Below, one piece after another: positions 7,631 through 19,797 of a DNA stretch of 64,000 nucleotides. The position numbers and the translations under genes are program-made. A model generated the notes under the pieces. The model ran no database searches, was not told where the DNA came from, and saw nothing but the letters and a program-made list of their open reading frames with translations. This DNA is from Halopenitus malekzadehii (GTDB taxonomy: Archaea; Halobacteriota; Halobacteria; Halobacteriales; Haloferacaceae), in contig NZ_FNWU01000002.1 in NCBI RefSeq assembly GCF_900108505.1, positions 1-64,000 on the forward strand, given 5' to 3'. Every line of letters begins with the position of its first letter. Positions within the stretch are counted from its first letter, which is position 1.

Positions 7631-7742
7631 GCAGTCTTGCGATTTTCCGATTTCGCCGGGCTATCCGGTTCGCAGGAACCAGAGACGACATCGGTGCAGT
7701 CGTGCGATTCCGCAATTTGCCCACTGAAACCGGATTCGCAGG
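7631..7742 (+). repeat. imperfect direct repeat before the integrase
   Basis: Two copies of about 46 bp (7631-7676 and 7696-7742) share GCAGTC(T/G)TGCGATT at the left and CGG(A)TTCGCAGG at the right, with a diverged middle. They are 65 bp apart start to start, between tRNA-Glu and the integrase start. Position and size fit integrase arm-binding sites, but that is inference. A short GGCCTGCGTAGGCC hairpin lies just upstream at 7559-7572. Confidence 0.55.
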
Positions 7743-7776
7743 GTCGACTCCAAAATCGAAGGACGGTGGTCAGTTT

Positions 7777-8880
7777 ATGATCGACCTCGATGACTACCCT
7801 GTCGTCACGGAAAACTCTGAAGAATTCCTCAATCATCGACAACTGCTGGACTATCGATCCGAGCGCGAAGAGTGCCTTCGCTGGTTGCTCACGTTCGGGA
7901 AGAAGCCCACCGAAGCAGTCGGCTACGCGAAGGGAACTGTGAAACCCCGTTGCTACCGGATGGATCGATTCTATCGGTACGTCTGGGAGCTCGAAGGCGG
8001 CTATACGGTGAATCTCACTCACGACCACGCCGACTCGTGGATGAATCATCTCGCTCAGCGTGACGTGAGCGCGGCCCACAAGCGGAACTGCCAGAAGGCA
8101 CTCCTTATGCTATACAAGTGGCTCCATCACGAACGAGGGCTCGGCGAGTGGGAACCCGAGTTCCGATTCTCCGCCGACAGTAGTTCAAAGCCACGCGACT
8201 ACCTTACGAGAGATGAACGACGCGCCATCCGTGACGCTGCCTTGGAATACGGATCTGTTCCATCGTACAATAACCTCACTCCCTCGGAACGTGATCGTTG
8301 GAAACAATATCTCGCCCAGCGGTTCGAGAAACCCAAGTCCGAAGTGACTCCTGAAGACTGGGACCGCGCGAATGGCTGGAAGTTTCCGTCTCTTGTCTGG
8401 GCCAGTCTCGACACTGGACTCCGTCCGATAGAAGTCGAACGGGCTGCGGTATCTTGGGTCGACACCGACAATAGCGTGTTACGTATCCCGAAGGAAGAGA
8501 GCGCGAAAAATAGAGAACATTGGGTCGTTGGAGTGAGAGATAAAACAGCTGAAGTCCTCTCGAAGTGGTGCCAACAACGACAAAATTACCCAGAGTACGA
8601 TGATACTGACACCCTCTGGCTGACTCGTAAACAGAACCCGTATGGGAAGTCAGCGCTTCGTGGACTATTGCACCGGTTATGTGAAATTGCCGGCATCGAG
8701 ATTGAGCATCGACAGATGAGCTGGTACACGATACGTCACTCTGTTGGCACTTATATGACGAGAGAAGAAGATCTTGCGGCAGCGCAGGCTCAGCTTCGTC
8801 ATCGCTCCCCCGAGACGACGATGAAGTATGATCAAACGCCGGTTGAAGATCGACGAGATGCTCTAGATCGGATGGGTTGA
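7777..8880 (+). CDS. tyrosine recombinase / integrase next to tRNA-Glu
   Basis: This is a phage-type integrase of about 367 residues. It has an N-terminal SAM-like core-binding domain (about 30-130) and a C-terminal catalytic domain with TGLRPIE (box I Arg), WYTIRHS (box II; about 316-322), an LRHRSPETT segment and MKYDQ with the nucleophile Tyr. The usual first His of H-x-x-R is Tyr (Y317-T-I-R320). A conserved SYNNLTPSERDRW segment (about 160-175) sits between the two domains and recurs in the integrase at 14763-15887. The ATG at 7777 is preferred because upstream codons run into the direct repeats. It lies downstream of tRNA-Glu and probably catalysed integration there. Confidence 0.9.
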   Translation: MIDLDDYPVVTENSEEFLNHRQLLDYRSEREECLRWLLTFGKKPTEAVGYAKGTVKPRCYRMDRFYRYVWELEGGYTVNLTHDHADSWMNHLAQRDVSAAHKRNCQKALLMLYKWLHHERGLGEWEPEFRFSADSSSKPRDYLTRDERRAIRDAALEYGSVPSYNNLTPSERDRWKQYLAQRFEKPKSEVTPEDWDRANGWKFPSLVWASLDTGLRPIEVERAAVSWVDTDNSVLRIPKEESAKNREHWVVGVRDKTAEVLSKWCQQRQNYPEYDDTDTLWLTRKQNPYGKSALRGLLHRLCEIAGIEIEHRQMSWYTIRHSVGTYMTREEDLAAAQAQLRHRSPETTMKYDQTPVEDRRDALDRMG

Positions 8881-9901: not shown

Positions 9902-10472
9902 CATCCTTCCCCCCAAAGGGCGAGGATTCTCTGTACTTGGGCCGTGACGGATGAAGGATATCAAGCCACGTTCGACACCCCAGTTCGAGTTTCTAATGGA
10001 TACTTTGAAGTGCCAAGAATCGCATTACTCCGGTACGGTCAGGTCGGAACGGAGCGGATTCCGAACGACCTTCGGAGGTCGGTCGAGAGAGCTTTGCTCT
10101 CTCGTGATGACGAAAATTGAAAATTTTCGAACCACGGCCGACCCGCTCTCGTAACGAGGTAGTATCCGAAACGCCGACGCGGTGAACGCGAATCTTCGAA
10201 GGGTTCGTCTTGTACCCGTCGGCCTATGCAAGCCTAACGATAACTTCGAGTCCCGCGACGTGTCAGCGACTCCCTACTAGCACAAACAACAGATGGGAGT
10301 CAACGACGCTGAAGAAAGGAGTAACGGTCACTTGGCATAGCCAGACAGCCACCGACCACGACGGCTGGGTTAGCTGCGAACTCCCGTCAAGTGGCGGAGT
10401 CGTGGTTGCAAACCTGAAACTCTCACCGCTCGGGATTCCGCCGCCTGAAAGCGGGGGAGGATGTCAAGAGTA
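9902..10472 (+). mobile_element. decayed IS200/IS605-type element without transposase
   Basis: The stretch opens with TTGACATCC and a C-rich/G-rich stem (9899-9925), and closes with CGCTCGGG...CCTGAAAGCGGGGGAGGATGTCAAG (10429-10471), the layout of IS200/IS605-type right ends that finish in TCAA(G). No intact tnpA or tnpB is left. Inside is a ladder of hairpins: CGACC-TTCGGA-GGTCG near 10068-10083, CGAGAGAGC-TTT-GCTCTCTCG (10084-10104) and CGAAAATT-GAA-AATTTTCG (about 10113-10131). These could be structural RNA of the original element. Both the boundaries and the family are read from end structure only. Confidence 0.45.
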
Positions 10473-10496
10473 TTCGCGTACTACACGCTAGTGAGA

Positions 10497-10952
10497 ATGG
10501 ATGAGGTTACCAATGCGTTGTACGTGGGATCGATCGACGATGCTGGCGACCAGTCACGACTTGCGGAGCATCGCATCTCGGTGATTATTTCACTGACGTT
10601 TGCGGAACCCGAAACTGGCTTTCCGCCTGACGTGACCGTTGTACGTCTCCCGATGATGGATGGTCCCCAAAATGATCACCAGACATTTGTCAGAGCTGTC
10701 AATGAAACACTAACCAGGTGGGAAGCAGAGAACCGTGTGCTTGTCCACTGTTCAGCTGGTGCATCACGGAGTCCGGCGGTTGCTGCGACTGTCGTCTCAC
10801 TATCGACTGACCGAACGCTGGAGTCTGTCTTCCAGCAACTGAAAGAGGAGCGTGCTGCGGTTGAGCCGCACGAAGCGCTGCTTCGACAGGCTGCCAGTGT
10901 CTCCAACCGTGGTAGAGAATACGTCGAACAAGCCAAGAGAACGCGGGACTAA
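10497..10952 (+). CDS. dual-specificity (tyrosine) protein phosphatase-like protein
   Basis: This is a 151-residue phosphatase of the DSP/PTP fold. The P-loop HCSAGASRSP (about 81-90) matches H-C-x5-R-S with catalytic Cys and Arg present, and a general-acid Asp is offered by MMDGPQND. The N-terminal NALYVGSIDDA motif is typical of DSPs. Starting at the ATG at 10497 excludes twelve residues encoded partly by the adjoining IS end (GGATGTCAAG); an ATG inside that IS end (10461) is in frame, so transcription or translation from the IS end is possible. Substrate unknown; haloarchaeal DSPs are often found in mobile DNA. Confidence 0.85.
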   Translation: MDEVTNALYVGSIDDAGDQSRLAEHRISVIISLTFAEPETGFPPDVTVVRLPMMDGPQNDHQTFVRAVNETLTRWEAENRVLVHCSAGASRSPAVAATVVSLSTDRTLESVFQQLKEERAAVEPHEALLRQAASVSNRGREYVEQAKRTRD

Positions 10953-11224: not shown

Positions 11225-11584
11225 ATGGTCGACGTCCTCCTCGTGGAAGACACCGATATGCAGCGCGCACTCCTGCGCGGGTTTCTCACCCCCGAACACA
11301 CGGTCGTGGGGGTCGCCGAGACCGGCGAGGAGGCGATCCGCAAGGCGGACCGCACCGCCCCCGACGTGGTCGTGATGGACATCGACCTGCCCGGCACCGA
11401 CGGGATCGAGGCCACTCGGACGATCAAACGGGCCAACCCTGAGGTCGCGGTCGTGATGAGCACCGCGATGGTGACCGAGGAGATTCGCGACCGCGCCACC
11501 GACGCCGGGGCGGACGCCTACCTCACCAAACCCTTCAGCAAGGACGACCTGCTCGCCACGATCGACGAGGCGTGTGCACGTTGA
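11225..11584 (+). CDS. single-domain response regulator (CheY-like receiver)
   Basis: The 119-residue protein is a lone receiver domain: acidic pair in LLVEDTD (residues 5-11), phosphoacceptor Asp in VVVMDIDLPG (about 53), Thr/Ser in VVMSTAM (about 82) and Lys in LTKPFS (about 104). All signature residues are present and no output domain follows. The start is set by a TATA-like ATTTAA at 11188-11193, about 35 bp upstream, consistent with a very short leader. GC and codon use return to core-like values here. The partner kinase is not in the window; the next genes encode secreted proteins. Confidence 0.92.
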   Translation: MVDVLLVEDTDMQRALLRGFLTPEHTVVGVAETGEEAIRKADRTAPDVVVMDIDLPGTDGIEATRTIKRANPEVAVVMSTAMVTEEIRDRATDAGADAYLTKPFSKDDLLATIDEACAR

Positions 11585-11661: not shown

Positions 11662-11706
11662 TTAGGGTGCCCTAACTAGCCGATACCGGACATTAGGATC
11701 CTCTAA
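11662..11706. promoter_or_regulatory. tandem palindromic operator-like sites
   Basis: TTAGGGTGCCCTAA (11662-11675) and TTAGGATCCTCTAA (11693-11706) are two near-perfect palindromes of the form TTAGG-N4-CYTAA, both followed by CTA. Their starts are 31 bp apart, about three helical turns, so a dimeric regulator could bind both on one face. They lie 114-158 bp before the secreted-protein gene at 11820, with a TTACAAA TATA-like box (11728-11734) in between. The regulator is not known. Confidence 0.55.
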
Positions 11707-11819
11707 CTACTGGGTAGGCCGGGCTTACAAAGGGGGTAGGGGTAGATGTATGATATAGAGACGCCGGCCGGGGGCACCGACGCCCGCCGCGCTGACGCGT
11801 ACACAAGGAGATAACAACT

Positions 11820-12365
11820 ATGGCACGACCCAAAGGAAAGCTGCTTGCGCTGGTATTGGTCTTCGGAGCGATCACGGTCGTCACGGCCACGGGCGCATTC
11901 ACCACGGTGGAGGCGGAACGGACCGCCGAAGTGAACGTCGCCGGTGACGCGAACGCGCTCGTCGGGCTCGAACCCGGTAGCGGTGCTGGGGCAGACGGAT
12001 ACGTCGACGATAGCGGAGATGAGATCCAGATCGATTTGTCGGGGGGAAGTGACTCTCAGGGTGTGAACCTGAACGCCACAACGGAGTTCGATAACATACT
12101 GCAGATATCGAACAACGGCGAGAACGAGGTCAACATCTCCGTCAACACGAACGGTGACAATGAGCAGTACGTGAGCGTGTACAACGGAACGGACTACGAC
12201 GACAGCTCACAGGAGATCACGAACGGAACGAACAACGCCACCGTGCCGTCCGGAGAGATGATCGAAGTGTCCATCCGGATCGACATCACCGGAGATGACA
12301 CGCTCTCGAAGAACGATGAGCTCCTCAGCAACATCGAGATCGTCGCCGAGAGCACGGGTAACTAA
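11820..12365 (+). CDS. secreted DUF1102-like protein
   Basis: This 181-residue protein has a signal peptide (basic RPKGK, hydrophobic LLALVLVFGAITVVTATGA) and an acidic, Asn/Ser-rich mature part with several potential N-glycosylation sequons (NATT, NVSV-like NISV, NGTD, NGTN, NATV). The pattern IEVSIRIDITGDDTL with ENEVNISV resembles DUF1102-type archaeal exported proteins, which look like small beta-sandwich surface subunits. AAGGAG 9 bp before the ATG is a strong Shine-Dalgarno, unusual in a mostly leaderless organism. Together with the next gene (110 bp on) it probably forms a cell-surface unit. No membrane anchor is visible, so it is presumably released or assembled onto a partner. Confidence 0.8.
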   Translation: MARPKGKLLALVLVFGAITVVTATGAFTTVEAERTAEVNVAGDANALVGLEPGSGAGADGYVDDSGDEIQIDLSGGSDSQGVNLNATTEFDNILQISNNGENEVNISVNTNGDNEQYVSVYNGTDYDDSSQEITNGTNNATVPSGEMIEVSIRIDITGDDTLSKNDELLSNIEIVAESTGN

Positions 12366-12475: not shown

Positions 12476-14647
12476 ATGAAACTCCGCTCCATCACCGCCG
12501 CGCTCGTCGTACTCTTCGCGCTCGGCGCGGTAGTGGCGACCGGAGCGGTGCTGGGGACCGCGGGCTCGCCGACGGAGTCCCTTTTTAACGGCGAGCCGGA
12601 CGTCGAATTCGGCGCGGCCAACGGGACGAACGGGAACTACGTCGTGAGCGACGACGACGGCGAGCTCCGGATCGACCTCACGGATCCGGGCGTGAACGCG
12701 GAGGCGTACACGACCGTCGACCGGGTCTTCTACCTGCACAACCAGGACACCCAGGACGTCCTCGTGTGGGTGACCCACGACGGCGGCGAGCGGGTCTCGA
12801 TGGCGAGCGACGAGGGCGGCCGGCCGATCGAGGGCGAGGAGAACGCGGTCACGCTCGCGCCGGGCGAGCGCGTGGTCGTGAACGTCGGCCTGGACAGCCG
12901 GGGGATCGAGGAGGGCGACCGGCTCCTCACGAGCGTGACGATCCACACCGGCTACGAGCTCGAGGAGGAGGTCGGCGACGGCAACGACACCGACGAGAAC
13001 GCGTCCGACGGCGGCGGTGGCGTCGGCGGAGGCGGTGGCGGCGGTGGCGGCGTGCCGGACGAGGAGACCCCGGAAACGACGCCCGGCGAGGAGGGCGAAC
13101 GGGACGAACCGGGTGAGGAGGGCGAACAGCCCGAGGGCGACGCGCCCGGCGAGGACGTGATCGACTCCGAGACCGGCGTGGAGGTCGAGTTCGAGGGCGA
13201 GACGGAGGATGGAACCCCCGACGTGGACGGCGGTGAGGGATCCGACGCCGATGCCGGGATTACGGTCCGTGAACTCTCGAACGAGGACCTCGATGCGATC
13301 GACGCCACCGCCAGGGACGGCAACCCGCGAGCGGTGATCTCGACGGCGGAGGACGAGGACGGCGACGGCGTCAACGACGAGAGTGACGACTCCGAGGGGG
13401 ACGCGATCGACCTCGCGGAAGGCACCATCGTGACGAACGTCGGGAAACCGGCCCGGCTCTCGGGCGAGCGGTCGACGATCAGCGTTTCGAGCGGGGTGAC
13501 GGAGCAGGACCGGATCGTGCGCGCAGTGGACATCGAGCCCCCCGAGAACCGCCGGGACCGGCCGGCCACGGTGCGGCTGCGCGTCGACCGCGACCGGTTC
13601 GGCGACGCCGACCCCTCGGGCGCGACCCTCGGCCACCGGACCGAGACCGGCTGGGAGCTGCTCGACACCACCGTGACGGAGACGACCGAGGACTACGTGG
13701 TCGTGTCGGCGCGCACGCGTAGCTTCTCCCCGTTCGCGGTCTTCGTCGACCCGGACGTCACCTACCAGTGGACGCTGCCGGACGGGACCACCCAGAGCGG
13801 CCGAGTGCTCGAGTACACCTTCGCGGAGCCGGGCCAGTACGATGTCGGACTCACCGTCCGCGACGCCCTCGGCCGCGAGAGCTCGACCACCCGGACGGTC
13901 ATCGCCAACGACGTGCCGACCGCCGAGGTCTCCGCGGAGTACGACCGGGCGGCCGAGGTGGCGACCCTCACCGCGGACGTCGAGAACGAGGTCGGCGACG
14001 CGACGGTGACTTGGACGTTCGCCGACGGGACCACGAAGACCGGCAAGACGGTTACCCATCCCCTCGAGCCCGGCGAGCACGTCGTCGACGTGCGCGTGGC
14101 AGACGAGTACGGAGCCGCCACGGAGACCACCGAGCGCGTCGCGGTCGCGACCGGCTGGTCGGTCGTCTCCGAGCTCTCGGCGCTGGGCATCGGCAGCACG
14201 ATCGTCTGGCAGACGCTCCTGTCGCTGACCGCCCTCGGCCTCATCGTCGCCGCCTACCGGTACCTCCCGTGGGGACGCATCATTCCCGAGGGTCGCGGCC
14301 CGCGGATCACGGTCCTCGAGGATCCCCGGGTGACCCTCGAGACGAACCGGTTCGAGATCGGCGCGCTGACCGTCGTCGATCCGCAGGTCGCGCTCGACAC
14401 GATCTCGATCGATATCGTCGACGAAGAGGGGACGGAGATCGTCCGCAAGCGCCTCGAGATCGTCGGCGATCGCGAGTACACGGCCGAAGACGAGACGATC
14501 GTCGTGCCGCCGGGAACCGACCTCGACCCCGAGGGGAACTACCGGATCCGGGTGACCGCCCGCAACGTGCGCGACCGGACCGGGTCGCTCGAGGGATCGT
14601 CGATCCGGATCGTCTCCACGCTCACGGACCCGGTGCCGGCGGTTTGA
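12476..14647 (+). CDS. large surface protein: DUF1102-like, PGF-pre-PGF-like and PKD-like domains with C-terminal anchor
   Basis: The 723-residue protein begins with a signal peptide (about 1-28) and a DUF1102-like domain (about 30-165) related to the preceding gene product. A Gly-rich linker and a highly acidic Pro/Glu stretch (about 180-270) follow. Next is a PGF-pre-PGF-like domain (about 290-430, ending with SFSPFAVF), then PKD-like beta domains (YQWTLPDGTTQSGRVLEYTF and a second VTWTFADGTTKTGKTV copy). A transmembrane helix (about 575-592) is followed by a cytoplasmic beta domain (about 600-720). It reads as a surface protein anchored with a large intracellular tail, likely a partner or anchor for the smaller secreted protein. 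Confidence 0.82.
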   Translation: MKLRSITAALVVLFALGAVVATGAVLGTAGSPTESLFNGEPDVEFGAANGTNGNYVVSDDDGELRIDLTDPGVNAEAYTTVDRVFYLHNQDTQDVLVWVTHDGGERVSMASDEGGRPIEGEENAVTLAPGERVVVNVGLDSRGIEEGDRLLTSVTIHTGYELEEEVGDGNDTDENASDGGGGVGGGGGGGGGVPDEETPETTPGEEGERDEPGEEGEQPEGDAPGEDVIDSETGVEVEFEGETEDGTPDVDGGEGSDADAGITVRELSNEDLDAIDATARDGNPRAVISTAEDEDGDGVNDESDDSEGDAIDLAEGTIVTNVGKPARLSGERSTISVSSGVTEQDRIVRAVDIEPPENRRDRPATVRLRVDRDRFGDADPSGATLGHRTETGWELLDTTVTETTEDYVVVSARTRSFSPFAVFVDPDVTYQWTLPDGTTQSGRVLEYTFAEPGQYDVGLTVRDALGRESSTTRTVIANDVPTAEVSAEYDRAAEVATLTADVENEVGDATVTWTFADGTTKTGKTVTHPLEPGEHVVDVRVADEYGAATETTERVAVATGWSVVSELSALGIGSTIVWQTLLSLTALGLIVAAYRYLPWGRIIPEGRGPRITVLEDPRVTLETNRFEIGALTVVDPQVALDTISIDIVDEEGTEIVRKRLEIVGDREYTAEDETIVVPPGTDLDPEGNYRIRVTARNVRDRTGSLEGSSIRIVSTLTDPVPAV

Positions 14648-14762: not shown

Positions 14763-15887
14763 CTACATTATATTAGCGGCTTCCCGTTTGACCTCTGGTA
14801 GTGGGTGCACGTATTTTTCAGCAGAGGCCCGGCTCTTCTGCCGAAGTTGATCAGCGACCACCTTGAGACTCTTCGTCTCAGCGAAAACATATGTTCCAAT
14901 ACTGTGCCGAAACGAGTACCAGACCAGATTTCGACCCTGGCTTTTGATTCCGGCTTCATCCATTAGGTTCCGAAGAAGGTCATTCAATGTCCCGGATGAG
15001 TATGGGTTCCCCTTGCGAGTTAGCCAGATCACATCGCGCCCATCGTACAGTTCCATCAACTCGCGCTGGTCTAACCATTTGTCCAACGCGAGGGCACCTT
15101 CATCAGTCAAATCAGCCCGCCAGTGCGTATCATTCTTCGGAGCTTCACCCTCCGGGATATAGATTGTTTTTTCAGATGGTTCGTACCACTGGACTTTCAT
15201 CCTACCAACAAGGTCGGGACGCCATCCATGACTGCGTGCTGTCCGGATGAGGGATGGGATATGCCAATCGTTATTGATTCGGTCCCAATCATCGGGGACA
15301 ACTGTCTCTTTTGGCTTTCCGAGTTCTTGTGCGATGTGTGCCTTCCAGCGGTCGCGTTCGTCAGGTGTTAGATTATTGTAGCTTGGGATGGATTTGTACG
15401 TAAGCGAAGTTTCCCACAGTTGCTTTAATTCAGGTCGCGTGAACGGATCCGGCTTGTTCTCCTTTTTCGCTTCGGCATCTGAAAACTCGTACTCTGGAGT
15501 CCAGTCGACATTCTGGAACTCAAACCAGTTCCTCAATGCGTCATTGAATTTTCGCTTCGATCCCTCTGCGTATGGTTCACCGTTACCCTTGCAGAATTCG
15601 TCTACCTCGAGTGCGCGATTAACTTTGTCAGCGTCATCGGTCGTGATCTCTGTCTTTATCTCGTGCTGGTTCCAGAACCACTTCACAGCTCGGTGAACGC
15701 GGTAAACCCGCTTCTCAACTGCAGTATCAGCATATCCGACTTTCTTCTTAGGGTTCTTGCCTTCTTTCTGGAGATAGTTAGCGAACCGAGCAAGTTTCGC
15801 GGAGTATATCTCAGACTGACGATTGTTGAGCAGTGATAGCTGCTCAGAAGAGATGACTTCTGATTGATCCCCCGGATTAGAGCTCAC
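14763..15887 (-). CDS. tyrosine recombinase / integrase, paralogue of the one at 7777
   Basis: The 374-residue protein matches the first integrase along its length, including the SYNNLTPDERDRW module (about 170-185), SHGWRPDL (box I Arg), VWYSFRHSIGTY (box II with Tyr in place of the first His) and SAEKYVHP with the nucleophile Tyr. It is convergent with the surface-protein gene. No tRNA or repeat of the tRNA-Glu 3' end is present around it, so its target is not apparent. AT-richer codon use than the genes to its left marks the start of foreign DNA. An in-frame ATG near the first residues gives the chosen start. Confidence 0.88.
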   Translation of the reverse strand: MSSNPGDQSEVISSEQLSLLNNRQSEIYSAKLARFANYLQKEGKNPKKKVGYADTAVEKRVYRVHRAVKWFWNQHEIKTEITTDDADKVNRALEVDEFCKGNGEPYAEGSKRKFNDALRNWFEFQNVDWTPEYEFSDAEAKKENKPDPFTRPELKQLWETSLTYKSIPSYNNLTPDERDRWKAHIAQELGKPKETVVPDDWDRINNDWHIPSLIRTARSHGWRPDLVGRMKVQWYEPSEKTIYIPEGEAPKNDTHWRADLTDEGALALDKWLDQRELMELYDGRDVIWLTRKGNPYSSGTLNDLLRNLMDEAGIKSQGRNLVWYSFRHSIGTYVFAETKSLKVVADQLRQKSRASAEKYVHPLPEVKREAANIM

Positions 15888-16969: not shown

Positions 16970-17425
16970 TTACTGAGACCTCGGTCCGCCGAGGCTGTGT
17001 TCAGAGAGAGACTCGTCAAAAAGCAACTGCGCGACAGGAGATGTGATTGCGACAGTTGTTGCCAATGCTAAGAAGTTCCGGTCAGGACGTATCTTTTTCT
17101 GATCTGATTGATATTCGATCACACCTAGACTATCAAGCTTTGGGAGATGCGTCTGAATCAACGCAGTATAGACGTTATGGTACCTTGACCCGGTCGCAGA
17201 ATCCACGCCCGTGTCCTCTTCGACAGCGACGATTTCACGGGCCAGTTGACTTGCGTCTATCATTTCTACCTCATCCGCACTGTCATAAGATAAATGCCGG
17301 TTTGACGACAGCATCCGGTCTGCGATGAGTGCGACGATTAATCGTCGACGCGAGGCACGAAGTGCATGGTGCAGTGCCGATAGTGATGGATCAATGTAGC
17401 ACTTGGGCTGAGGAGTTCGTTGCAT
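16970..17425 (-). CDS. winged-helix regulator, DUF7344-like
   Basis: The 151-residue protein has a helical start with ALRASRRRLIVALIAD (about 22-40), a long loop, then YTALIQTHLPKLDSLGVIEY (about 85-105), which is the recognition-helix and wing part of the DUF7344-type haloarchaeal winged helix. It is paralogous to the upstream gene product and its start overlaps that gene's stop by one base, so they form an operon. Probably DNA-binding. No metal or ligand site is seen. Confidence 0.75.
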   Translation of the reverse strand: MQRTPQPKCYIDPSLSALHHALRASRRRLIVALIADRMLSSNRHLSYDSADEVEMIDASQLAREIVAVEEDTGVDSATGSRYHNVYTALIQTHLPKLDSLGVIEYQSDQKKIRPDRNFLALATTVAITSPVAQLLFDESLSEHSLGGPRSQ

Positions 17426-17940
17426 TATTCGCTCACCCCTGATGGCGAATTCATAATGTTGATCGCTTGCTCAATGCCGAGGAGCAGAGATTCAAGTTGG
17501 TAGACACCGACCTCTGGCTGAACCTTCTTTCCACGTTCGTCGTAGGTTATCACACCAGCTTCGTCAAGTTTCGATAAGTGGTGTTGGATCAGGCTGATAT
17601 ACACCGTCTTTCGATCCGTAGACTCGTTGAAGGTATCCTCAGCGATGTGCTCGGCAACGTCACCAACTGGAATCTGGGGGGTCTCATCCCCGTCGTGGTC
17701 ACGAACCAGGGCTGCGAGGATGAAAATAAACCGGCGGCGGCGCTTAGAGCTGATGATTTCGTAGACATCGTCTAGATTAAGGCTATACTGTTTATGTTGA
17801 TCCGGCTGATCACAATCGTGGCTATCACCGCAAACGAACGCGGTCTCACCAGTACAGAGTTGTTTACAGGTCTCTACATCTCGATTGATCGGAACGCCGA
17901 ATTTTTCACGATCGGCGTGCGTAGTGTCGTCTGCCGTCAT
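17425..17940 (-). CDS. winged-helix regulator, DUF7344-like, with N-terminal Cys cluster
   Basis: About 171 residues from the ATG at 17940. The N-terminal 45 residues hold four Cys (CKQLC, FVCGD, HDCD), a possible zinc or redox site. The remainder is a winged helix with IISSKRRRRFIFILAAL and YISLIQHHLSKLDEAGVITYD, matching the DUF7344 pattern and the next gene. A GTG four codons upstream is an alternative start. It is first in a two-gene operon. The two paralogues may heterodimerise (inference). Confidence 0.75.
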   Translation of the reverse strand: MTADDTTHADREKFGVPINRDVETCKQLCTGETAFVCGDSHDCDQPDQHKQYSLNLDDVYEIISSKRRRRFIFILAALVRDHDGDETPQIPVGDVAEHIAEDTFNESTDRKTVYISLIQHHLSKLDEAGVITYDERGKKVQPEVGVYQLESLLLGIEQAINIMNSPSGVSE

Positions 17941-18149
17941 ACTCGGCGGCACAGGGGTCGGTGCTAGGACACCGGCCCCGGCTTTCTACCGAGGCATCCT
18001 GCGCCTATCTGTGTCGACACTCAGTTATCAACTTAAACATACGCTTTTCAGATATGTGGTAGCATCTGGATGGTTTCGTGACACTCTCCAAGACCAGTCG
18101 GCCCCACTGCTGAAATTCGTAGCCAAGATCGCGGCACTCTGTGTTAGCG

Positions 18150-19505
18150 TTAGGCTGGTTGCTCGACGGACTTGTCGACTTGGCGTGCGTGCCGGATGTA
18201 TGCGTCCAGCCGCTCGAAGAGGTCGGACCGCTGTTTGATCACGGGTTCGAGCTTCCGCAACGCTTGGAGATCCCGGGCGGTTACCTCACCGTCGACGATC
18301 ATATCCAGCAGGTTCGCCTCTTCGACGATCGCCGGTGTTGCTTGGATCTCCAGCGCGTCAGCGGGGATCGCAGTCCCGCACCAGATACATTCGTCTACGT
18401 GGCGCTCTGTCCAGCGGCCACACCCTTCACAGCGCACCGGCGCGATGTTCGTCGTCTGGGCCCCGGGATCGATGTCAACGCCGTCAGCAGCGGCGATACG
18501 CTCCTCGGAGCTTTCGTCGAACTTGACGATGTAGTGACGGGGTGAATCTGACTCGCGTGCCCAGCCAAACCGGCGCTCAAGATCGACCTGACTGATGTAG
18601 GTCTTCGCGGCGAGATCGCTCGCCCGACTCCGGCGGCAGTGCTGGCCGGTCAGTTTCTTCTGGATATCCGTCTTCTCTTTAGCCGTATCGAAGGGCTTGG
18701 TGAACTGGTTGTAGGAGATGCGGTCGTAGACATCTCCGTATCCCGACCGTATGTTGGCCCACAGGGGCATCTCGGGTTGGAGCCCGCCATCGACATTGTG
18801 GCCGGGGTGGTTTTCGATCCACTTCACGAGGAATGGCGCACCCGGATGCATATGGACCTCTCGGCTGCCAGTCTTCGTGTCCTCTGGAATTGATAACCGG
18901 ACAAAGCCGTCCTCGACCTCAACCTCTTCGATCATTAGCTTGTGCAGTTCGGTTTCTGGACGGCCACCGGCAGACCAGCACGTTGCGACTATGGCCTTGT
19001 CGCGGATGTTATTCTGGACTTGAATAGCCTTGATCACCTCGGTGGGGTACCGCAGCACGTTCGACGCTTTCGGTGTTGGATCCGCGGGCCCGTTGTTCAG
19101 GGTGAGCTTCTCAAACCGATCGGGCTGGTCATCGCCGGGGGTCATCACCTCGCCCCAGATCTTGAAGCAGGCGTAGCGCGTATCCAGCGAGTTCTTCAAG
19201 TAGTGGTCATCCATCCAGTCGGCGACAGCATCAACGGCCTGCTCGCCGTCCTCACCGTCCAGGAGTGTCTCCTCAAGAGCGACATCAACGTGTTTGCTCG
19301 TGAGGATCATCGTATCGAGCAACGTTAGGATTCGCGCCTTTCCGAAGCGGTTTTCGTCGCGGTTGATTGTTTGAATCCGGTTGTAGAATTCCAACAGTAT
19401 ACCCCGGTCACGGTCGTCGATCTCGGGGTCTGTACTGCCGTCCGACCCAGCATCTGGGTCGATCCGGACGATACGCTTTTTTATTTTCCTCTGTTTACTC
19501 ACCAT
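18150..19505 (-). CDS. tyrosine recombinase with C-terminal zinc ribbon
   Basis: The 451-residue recombinase-like protein has a core-binding domain (about 30-150) and a catalytic domain with SAGGRPETEL (Arg), QHCRRSRASDL (box II H-x-x-R intact), FGWARES and PRHYIVK with the nucleophile Tyr. A zinc ribbon follows, CEGCGRW...CIWCG, and then a helical tail. This architecture is that of haloarchaeal plasmid/provirus integrases. The ATG at 19505 is preferred over an in-frame upstream ATG because the TTTTTTA promoter-like stretch (near 19595) lies between them. It may be the integrase for the regulators at 16349-17940. Confidence 0.85.
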   Translation of the reverse strand: MVSKQRKIKKRIVRIDPDAGSDGSTDPEIDDRDRGILLEFYNRIQTINRDENRFGKARILTLLDTMILTSKHVDVALEETLLDGEDGEQAVDAVADWMDDHYLKNSLDTRYACFKIWGEVMTPGDDQPDRFEKLTLNNGPADPTPKASNVLRYPTEVIKAIQVQNNIRDKAIVATCWSAGGRPETELHKLMIEEVEVEDGFVRLSIPEDTKTGSREVHMHPGAPFLVKWIENHPGHNVDGGLQPEMPLWANIRSGYGDVYDRISYNQFTKPFDTAKEKTDIQKKLTGQHCRRSRASDLAAKTYISQVDLERRFGWARESDSPRHYIVKFDESSEERIAAADGVDIDPGAQTTNIAPVRCEGCGRWTERHVDECIWCGTAIPADALEIQATPAIVEEANLLDMIVDGEVTARDLQALRKLEPVIKQRSDLFERLDAYIRHARQVDKSVEQPA

Positions 19506-19797
19506 GGCAGCGCACCTCTTGGAACCAGGCTCGCGCTTCACCACGGCGTGTGGATGTTCGATACATCTGCACGCCAACTTATCGCTTGCTAATGTAAAAA
19601 ACTTAGTAGCACCAGTCATAATACTGAAACAGAGGGTACTCCCTCTTCTTGGTTGATTCTATAACGGGGTTAGAGAGACTTTCCTGTACATTTCGCCGAA
19701 AAACGCACATCACTCCTTGGACTAGCTACTTATAAACCATCTCTTGACTTATTCTAATGATTACCTATTTATACCCTATGGAAGTCTGGGTTTTTTA

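Follow-up and report, generated by a model that had tools for sequence, protein, structure and literature searches.

The window analysed here, which is the whole stretch of 64,000 nucleotides at positions 1 to 64,000 of contig NZ_FNWU01000002.1 of Halopenitus malekzadehii, carries a pair of surface-protein genes preceded by a row of palindromic boxes. The features of this locus are:

11225-11584, + strand: response-regulator receiver domain of 119 aa with no output domain (Pfam PF00072 only, residues 4-113)
11662-11675, no strand: putative operator box 1, TTAGGGTGCCCTAA, an exact TTAGG-N4-CCTAA, at -65 from the ACAAAG anchor
11693-11706, no strand: putative operator box 2, TTAGGATCCTCTAA, one mismatch to TTAGG-N4-CCTAA, at -34 from the anchor
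11714-11728, + strand: half-site of box 3, GTAGGCCGGGCTTAC, abutting the TATA-like element, at -13 from the anchor
11725-11732, + strand: TATA-like element, TTACAAAG, common to fimbrial promoters of several genera
11805-11812, + strand: Shine-Dalgarno-like element of the fimbrial gene, AAGGAGAT, as read in the sequence
11820-12365, + strand: gene for a TafE-like fimbrial subunit, 181 aa, secreted
12476-14647, + strand: gene for a TafF-like surface protein with PKD domain, 723 aa

All promoter offsets are counted from the ACAAAG at 11727-11732 (ACAATG in the paralog on contig C27 of the same genome, see below). Boxes 1 and 2 begin 158 and 127 bp before the ATG of the fimbrial gene. The original prediction described two palindromes with a start-to-start distance of 31 bp, a Shine-Dalgarno sequence behind them and a lone response regulator beside them, and the palindromes are at the coordinates which it gave, with AAGGAGAT and the response regulator present as well; the third box, at 11714, was absent from it. 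The TATA-like TTACAAAG is directly followed by a G-rich stretch and is the presumed core promoter. G001 and one copy of the locus in Halopenitus persicus have the identical 14 bases of box 1, and the variant TTAGGGCGCCCTAA is found in the C27 paralog and in the other H. persicus copy. The AAGGAGA of the Shine-Dalgarno-like element is kept in G001, G002 and G017. A stem-loop is possible in most fimbrial 5' leaders (at about 11761-11800 in the window), some 10 nt from the presumed start site, the sequences being unrelated and the position similar; a stem is at a similar position in most leaders of the PKGKL type, with z-scores from -4.1 to -0.1.

The secreted 181-aa protein is a TasA-like (Taf) fimbrial subunit. 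It scores 64.8 bits (E 8e-18) against the NCBIfam family TafE (NF052522), which is below the curated cut-off of 155 bits and makes the protein a relative of TafE rather than the same equivalog. Its sequence matches the Natrinema pilin 9p0a with an E-value of 1.8e-8. The AF2 model (mean pLDDT 75) has its best structural matches in 9p0a (Z 9.4) and in the Pyrobaculum bundling pilus 7ueg (Z 8.3), and Foldseek returned the same two entries with E-values of 4e-5 for 7ueg and 4e-4 for 9p0a; Pfam gave only matches below the curated cut-offs for this protein. In fold and sequence the subunit is thus like the Tafi pilus of Natrinema J7-2 (PDB 9p0a) and the NCBIfam TafA/C/E/F families. The order of a TafE gene followed by a TafF-like gene is found in many ortholog loci. 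Other neighbours kept at taf loci (e.g., L055, L089 and L103) are a DUF7504 protein, a possibly coiled-coil protein, a DUF5305 protein and an S26-type signal peptidase.

The gene order of the window recurs in a paralogous module at C27:514259. BLAST aligns the two loci in blocks of 744 bp (93%) and 2.2 kb (91%), which cover the regulator, the promoter together with the part coding for the signal peptide, and the TafF gene, and the part coding for the mature fimbrial protein in between has diverged strongly. It looks as if the mature fimbrial domain has been swapped or diversified between the paralogs. The fimbrial paralogs of the window (compared over 11866-12365) and of L009 have 43% amino acid identity over the whole protein. 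Three genes of the tyrosine integrase type lie around the duplicated cassette (7702-8880, 14763-15887 and 18150-19619), and a 6.2-kb contig of H. persicus with the second fimbrial copy (L099) has a stretch which is 94.8% identical. The arrangement suggests that the cassette in the window is mobile and carries operators without the cognate regulator.

Ortholog upstream regions were read in G001, G002 (two copies), G007, G017, G066, G070, G119, G125, G132, G184 and G190, and in further genomes, among them those of Natronomonas aquatica, Halorarius halobius, Halobellus captivus, Halobaculum saliterrae, Haloquadratum walsbyi and Halorubrum vacuolatum. Of these and the Halopenitus loci 17 promoters, four of them from Halopenitus, were aligned for a test of phasing. 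The test did without L099, the promoter of G119b, which is divergent, one L110 promoter out of two, and the copies that offer no anchored promoter (G132a, G133/L112 and L105); these last three, all from Haloquadratum, have no boxes upstream. A KTAG begins at -13 in 17 of the 17 promoters, and a dyad scoring at least 8/10 begins at exactly -34 in 14 of them. Additional boxes start at -55, -65/66, -77, -87, -98/99, -120, -130, -141 and -184. Seen from the -34 box, the dyads further upstream (at least 8/10, within 200 bp) are 21, 31/32, 43, 53, 64/65, 86, 96, 107 and 150 bp away, that is at whole turns of 10.6-10.7 bp. For 13 offsets merged by lineage a period of 10.6 bp, picked after inspection, gives R = 0.95, a value matched by none of 100000 random draws; periods from 10.5 to 11 give R of at least 0.86 for the 21 unmerged offsets. 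The number of boxes per promoter, including the half-site at -13, goes from two (G017, G119 and G125) to about seven in G007, where the boxes read TTAGC..CCTAT.

The two palindromes of the window belong to a longer row of putative binding sites which lie on the same side of the helix and at fixed distances from the start signal. The original prediction had named a lack of conservation at orthologous genes as the observation which would speak against it, and the orthologous fimbrial genes of several genera do have the palindromes upstream. Its proposal that the promoter of these surface-protein genes is a controlled one is well supported, the boxes being conserved at fixed, phased distances from the TATA-like element. 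The spacing of 31 bp, which it took to be three helical turns, holds for the window and is not invariant, as the C27 paralog and both H. persicus copies have 32 bp; a strict 31-bp spacing is therefore ruled out as the defining feature, and the phase is what is invariant.

How specific the boxes are depends on how strictly they are defined. The loose motif (up to two mismatches) is not in excess within the window, with 14 matches to 14.4 expected. The genome-wide search suggested by the original prediction found the exact TTAGGN4CCTAA at 16 sites versus 2 for the reversed control, and the tandem pair in only two places of the 3.14-Mb genome, the window and the paralogous promoter at C27:514259 (control 0 in that genome). 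The loose tandem pair showed no overall excess over 60 relatives (16 matches versus 22 for the reversed control), and only the fimbrial promoters stand out in that scan. The three genomes of the Haloquadratum type are not enriched for the exact palindrome (4 versus 9 in the control for G007, 5 versus 9 for G132 and 3 versus 8 for G133). In 12 genomes GTAGGN4CCTAC has 7 sites, fewer than the 55 of its reversed control. When KTAGGN4CCTAM with at most one mismatch was sought in 14 loci (167 kb, with the first 20 kb of the window only), 21 boxes were found: TafE-like genes have 18 of them upstream, the TafF promoter of G070 has 1, and the remaining 2 lie elsewhere.

A composite element, made up of a box, a 21-bp step, a half-box and the anchor, was then used to scan 12 whole genomes with at most two mismatches. 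There were 21 matches. All 11 with no or one mismatch are fimbrial promoters, and in the two-mismatch class 4 of 10 are fimbrial promoters and 6 are not. Two fimbrial promoters from outside the design set were recovered, that of a TafE-like gene in G190:C319 and that of the TafF gene of G070, and in the genome of the window (G000) the scan returned the two known promoters only. The reversed control gave 32 matches, more than the 21 real ones, with 22 of the 32 in the Haloquadratum-type genomes G007 and G132; as the control comes without mismatch classes, the case for the composite element is carried by the best matches and their places, not by the total.

A candidate for the protein which reads the boxes is found close to many of them. 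In 13 loci or genomes a gene for a DUF7344 protein (PF24035) is in the opposite orientation to, or at most about 10 kb from, a box-bearing fimbrial gene: C27 of G000, G001, H. persicus, G007, G017, G066, G070, G132, G119, G125, Natronomonas, Halorarius and a Halovenus MAG. No cognate DUF7344 gene is linked to the copy in the window, to the second one of H. persicus, to G184 or to L110, and G190 has it on a different contig. Next to the DUF7344 gene of G007 is a copy without boxes, and the box-bearing copy is about 4 kb away; in Halopenitus there is no box next to the DUF7344 gene itself. The family is widespread, with members in 162 of 170 related genomes. The 13 best matches of the C27 protein (at least 178 bits, the next one having 169) all come from the 14 genomes which have the closest TafE relatives, 12 of these being represented; such a top match is absent from G184 and G027 and unlinked in G133. 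G000 has seven DUF7344 matches, two of them in the 64-kb window and both divergent. These two are encoded about 5 kb from the cassette, at 16970-17425 and 17425-17952 on the - strand; their recognition helices differ, and one has no hydrophobic stretch and the other a single one.

The AF2 model of the DUF7344 protein (211 aa, mean pLDDT 81) predicts a winged helix, with blocks over residues 51-120 at 94-98, and C-terminal helices at 142-161 and 172-193. A hydrophobic C-terminal stretch is present in all 12 full-length DUF7344 proteins, two separate segments not being resolved in all of them; this, from the model and a crude hydropathy analysis, points to a membrane anchor. In a VIA-align comparison of the model two entries of RosR, a haloarchaeal regulator, came first (6qfd, Z 9.4; 6ez1, Z 8.6), followed by ArsR-like regulators, and Z-scores of this level indicate a winged helix, not a function. 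Foldseek gave no match of the model to the PDB at E of 0.001 or lower, the DUF7344 profile matched nothing among PDB sequences up to E 1, and Pfam found DUF7344 only, with no HAMP or sensor region, in the proteins of L009, L055 and L056. Most likely the reader of the boxes is this little-known, probably membrane-tethered protein rather than the response regulator.

DUF7344 and the operator boxes come in matching variants. The ACAAAG core is shared by fimbrial promoters of Halorubrum, Haloferax, Natrinema and others, in which TTCAAGC/GCTTGAA takes the place of the KTAGG boxes. The word is seen in phased positions upstream of ACAAAG in L109, L113, L125, L127, L128 and L164 (Halorubrum, Haloferax, Halobellus and Natrinema). 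Exact TTCAAG/CTTGAA occurs 14 times in 9 promoters, or 1.56 per promoter compared to 0.043 for each 150 bp of these loci, and is phased at 10.5 bp (p = 0.0007 for 9 offsets). Redundant Haloferax loci and L117 are not among these 9 promoters; L111 and L115, for which no DUF7344 helix was recognised, are. The offsets depend on how the centre of the half-site is defined. The recognition helix of DUF7344 reads ERKRVY(I/V)(S/A)(L/M)YQ(S/G)HL (Y-type) in the KTAGG group and ERK(R/T)VYTSLQQTHL (Q-type) in the other. Among distinct loci holding both a DUF7344 gene and an anchored promoter, the 10 with a Y-type helix have KTAGG boxes and none of them has TTCAAG/CTTGAA within 150 bp; the 9 with a Q-type helix (10 promoters, four of the loci from Haloferax) have TTCAAG/CTTGAA and no KTAGG dyad scoring 9 or more. 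The boxes of L055 (G007) score 8 near the promoter, below the threshold of 9, and this locus was counted as KTAGG from the phasing alignment; L009 and L090 are Y-type with boxes and stay outside the 10, their anchors being off the pattern used.

Neither operator word was found at loci with other helix types (L064 with two promoters, L123 and L163). Another 40 DUF7344 loci contributed five with an anchored promoter, of which three repeat Haloferax loci, and most of the 40 are without a recognisable fimbrial promoter. A further class of fimbrial promoters, in L060, L065, L107 and L123, shares TACTACTTACAAAGGGGG and has neither word; it possibly belongs to a third type of regulator. The loci form two clades, so the match between helix and operator could be produced by shared descent, and we take it as strong circumstantial evidence, not as proof. 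Halobellus captivus, the only contrast of this kind within one genome, has both pairs of helix and word (L101 and L125), and this speaks against a difference that is simply one between genomes.

The explanation which we favour, with a probability of about 0.58, is that the palindromes are members of a phased operator array which controls the Taf operon, each KTAGG-N4-CCTAM box being the site of a DUF7344 dimer. The boxes, their phasing, anchoring and conservation, the synteny and the match of regulator and operator are what the sequences contain; from these we infer the binding of DUF7344, its location in the membrane, the sign of activation and any input signal. One dimer per box would bind through the N-terminal winged helix of a protein probably anchored in the membrane by its C-terminus, and spacings of 21, 32 or 43 bp would stack the dimers on one face of the DNA. 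The DUF7344 protein would be the one encoded beside the ancestral copy of the operon (G000:C27:513039-513722), in opposite orientation, and would act in trans on the duplicate in the window; since no cognate regulator is encoded within the 64 kb, it is the C27 DUF7344 which would serve the window copy. As the last half-box reaches the TFB/TBP region, the bound row would most likely recruit or stabilise TFB/TBP at the weak TATA element. Activation is favoured over repression by a little less than two to one.

This manner of action would be like that of the archaellum activators ArnR and EarA. According to PMC6396743, ArnR/ArnR1 of Sulfolobus acidocaldarius is membrane-bound by two C-terminal transmembrane domains, is described as an activator of the archaellum and has two inverted repeats upstream of BRE/TATA, both of which are needed for binding. 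The likeness, which is meant as one of function, lies in the N-terminal HTH (a winged helix in the AF2 model of DUF7344) and in the tandem inverted repeats upstream of the BRE/TATA of an operon for a surface appendage. The ArnR box differs in being TCGAC-N5-GTCGA, in two copies, and the operon is that of the archaellum, not of Taf fimbriae (PMC6396743); ArnR also has putative HAMP and sensor regions, and Pfam finds none in the three DUF7344 proteins. EarA, the euryarchaeal archaellum activator, is a winged-helix protein proposed to recruit TFB, with four sites in the fla promoter of Methanococcus maripaludis, as given in PMC6396743 and PMC13286277, and it shares with DUF7344 the winged helix and several copies of the site upstream of an appendage promoter. 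Its site contains TACATA, unlike the fimbrial boxes, and the passages on it do not describe it as membrane-bound (PMC6396743, PMC13286277). CsmR of Haloferax volcanii is likewise a haloarchaeal appendage regulator with a semi-palindrome of 5-N4-5 beside the TATA box, and differs in belonging to the Lrp/AsnC family and in its word, TATCA-N4-TGATA; according to PMC13286277, the genes with matching promoter-proximal motif peaks rose most in the deletion strain. Of regulators of iron the fimbrial promoters resemble the DtxR type in the palindrome TTAGG-N4-CCTAA and differ from it in position, in spacer bases and in the evolutionary drift of the boxes.

The palindrome TTAGG-N4-CCTAA is what we take to be the consensus of the haloarchaeal DtxR-type iron box, with site 1 an exact match and site 2 one mismatch away. 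A metalloregulator of the DtxR/Idr/SirR type might bind it and couple the production of fimbriae to iron, and since the same palindrome is found at iron-uptake-like genes in G000 this must be taken seriously. The haloarchaeal DtxR, Idr and SirR proteins are iron regulators, as stated in PMC11349517, and G000 encodes five PF01325 regulators above cut-off. The identical 14-bp palindrome lies beside several genes of G000 that look like iron uptake or storage genes: its neighbours are Peripla_BP_2 and other solute-binding proteins, an ABC permease, an ABC ATPase and a lipoprotein with DUF5059/plastocyanin domain, and it is also near a DtxR-family gene at C24:5374 and a Dps-like ferritin gene. Loci marked by the palindrome are seen on C6, C24, C27, C29 and C35 of G000 (L005, L006, L010, L011, L012 and L013). 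These non-fimbrial sites are probably the DtxR boxes of an iron regulon, the iron role being suggested by the Pfam families. The fimbrial boxes set themselves apart from them in several ways. A plausible start codon follows 4-5 bp after the end of 4 of the 14 non-fimbrial exact sites; the fimbrial boxes are placed differently, upstream of the TATA-like element. The spacer of non-fimbrial exact sites is Y6..R9 in 49 of 70 and R6..Y9 in 3 of 70 (6 of the 14 genomes listed); the exact fimbrial sites of Halopenitus are R6..Y9 in 5 of 5, the fimbrial boxes of other genera varying in this respect. In Halobaculum (G066 and G070) the fimbrial box has become GTAGG-N4-CCTAC and is the sole such site in each genome, alongside 9 and 7 sites of TTAGG-N4-CCTAA elsewhere; the DtxR route is unlikely because this fimbrial word occurs nowhere else in the two genomes. 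The boxes of G007 deviate as well (TTAGC..CCTAT), and none of the five DtxR-family genes of G000 is within 60 kb of a fimbrial locus. Position, spacer bases and the change of the box in Halobaculum all lower a simple reading as iron boxes, and we consider control by iron improbable, at perhaps one chance in six. Far less credible still is that the neighbouring response regulator binds the palindromes or controls them directly. It does lie directly upstream in the Halopenitus copies seen (L053 for the second H. persicus copy), and the original prediction hinted at it as the DNA-binding regulator. Its PF00072 receiver has no output DNA-binding domain, and among the loci examined it adjoins TafE only in Halopenitus, boxes of other genera occurring in loci where no response regulator stands beside the fimbrial gene; as a DNA binder it is rejected on these two grounds. 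As speculation, it could modulate the DUF7344 regulator by protein contact. A protein with a dual-specificity phosphatase domain (PF00782) is encoded just upstream of it, at 10461-10952 on the + strand.

An array needs a reader, and this could instead be another, unlinked dimeric regulator (e.g., RosR-, Lrp- or TrmB-like), with a different role for DUF7344 in the locus. The boxes of G007 at a copy not adjacent to the DUF7344 gene agree with this, and so does the Lrp-family CsmR, which binds TATCA-N4-TGATA beside TATA boxes in Haloferax (PMC13286277). Against an unlinked reader speak an operator word which changes with the recognition helix of DUF7344, even within Halobellus captivus, and the closest DUF7344 subfamily tracking the closest TafE subfamily over 170 genomes, and we hold it to be unlikely, although slightly less so than iron control. 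If DUF7344 is the reader, it might instead act as a repressor which blocks TFB/TBP at the -13 box until it is released; this variant is compatible with the explanation we favour and does not exclude it. Archaeal repressors often cover the BRE/TATA region, and the last half-box overlaps that region. Rigid distances of an integral number of turns between the far boxes and the TATA-like element suggest, on the other hand, a contact with the basal machinery, and the analogous sites of ArnR and EarA are upstream and activating (PMC6396743, PMC13286277). Given DUF7344 as the reader, repression is hence a real possibility, with odds of about one in three.

We found no paper in the open-licence literature on the regulation of archaeal TasA-like (Taf/Tafi) fimbriae and no mention there of DUF7344. 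What appears to be new is that an arrangement like that of ArnR is formed by a protein family not yet described and has several phased sites per array. In its widest form the hypothesis is that the haloarchaeal DUF7344 proteins are a family of membrane-tethered winged-helix regulators with operator words of their own, that each array consists of two to seven phased sites at rigid distances from the TATA box of a Taf operon, that matched changes of helix and operator separate paralogous systems within a cell, and that mobile duplicate cassettes rely on the resident regulator in trans; the chances for and against this are in our opinion even. If it is true, an orphan family with members in nearly all of the related genomes (162 of 170) would gain a function together with candidate operator codes, of which the Haloferax loci carry the second word. 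The fimbrial promoters would also lend themselves, as a clean natural system, to the question of how an archaeal regulator communicates with TBP/TFB, since they differ naturally in the distance and number of sites and agree in phase and anchor.
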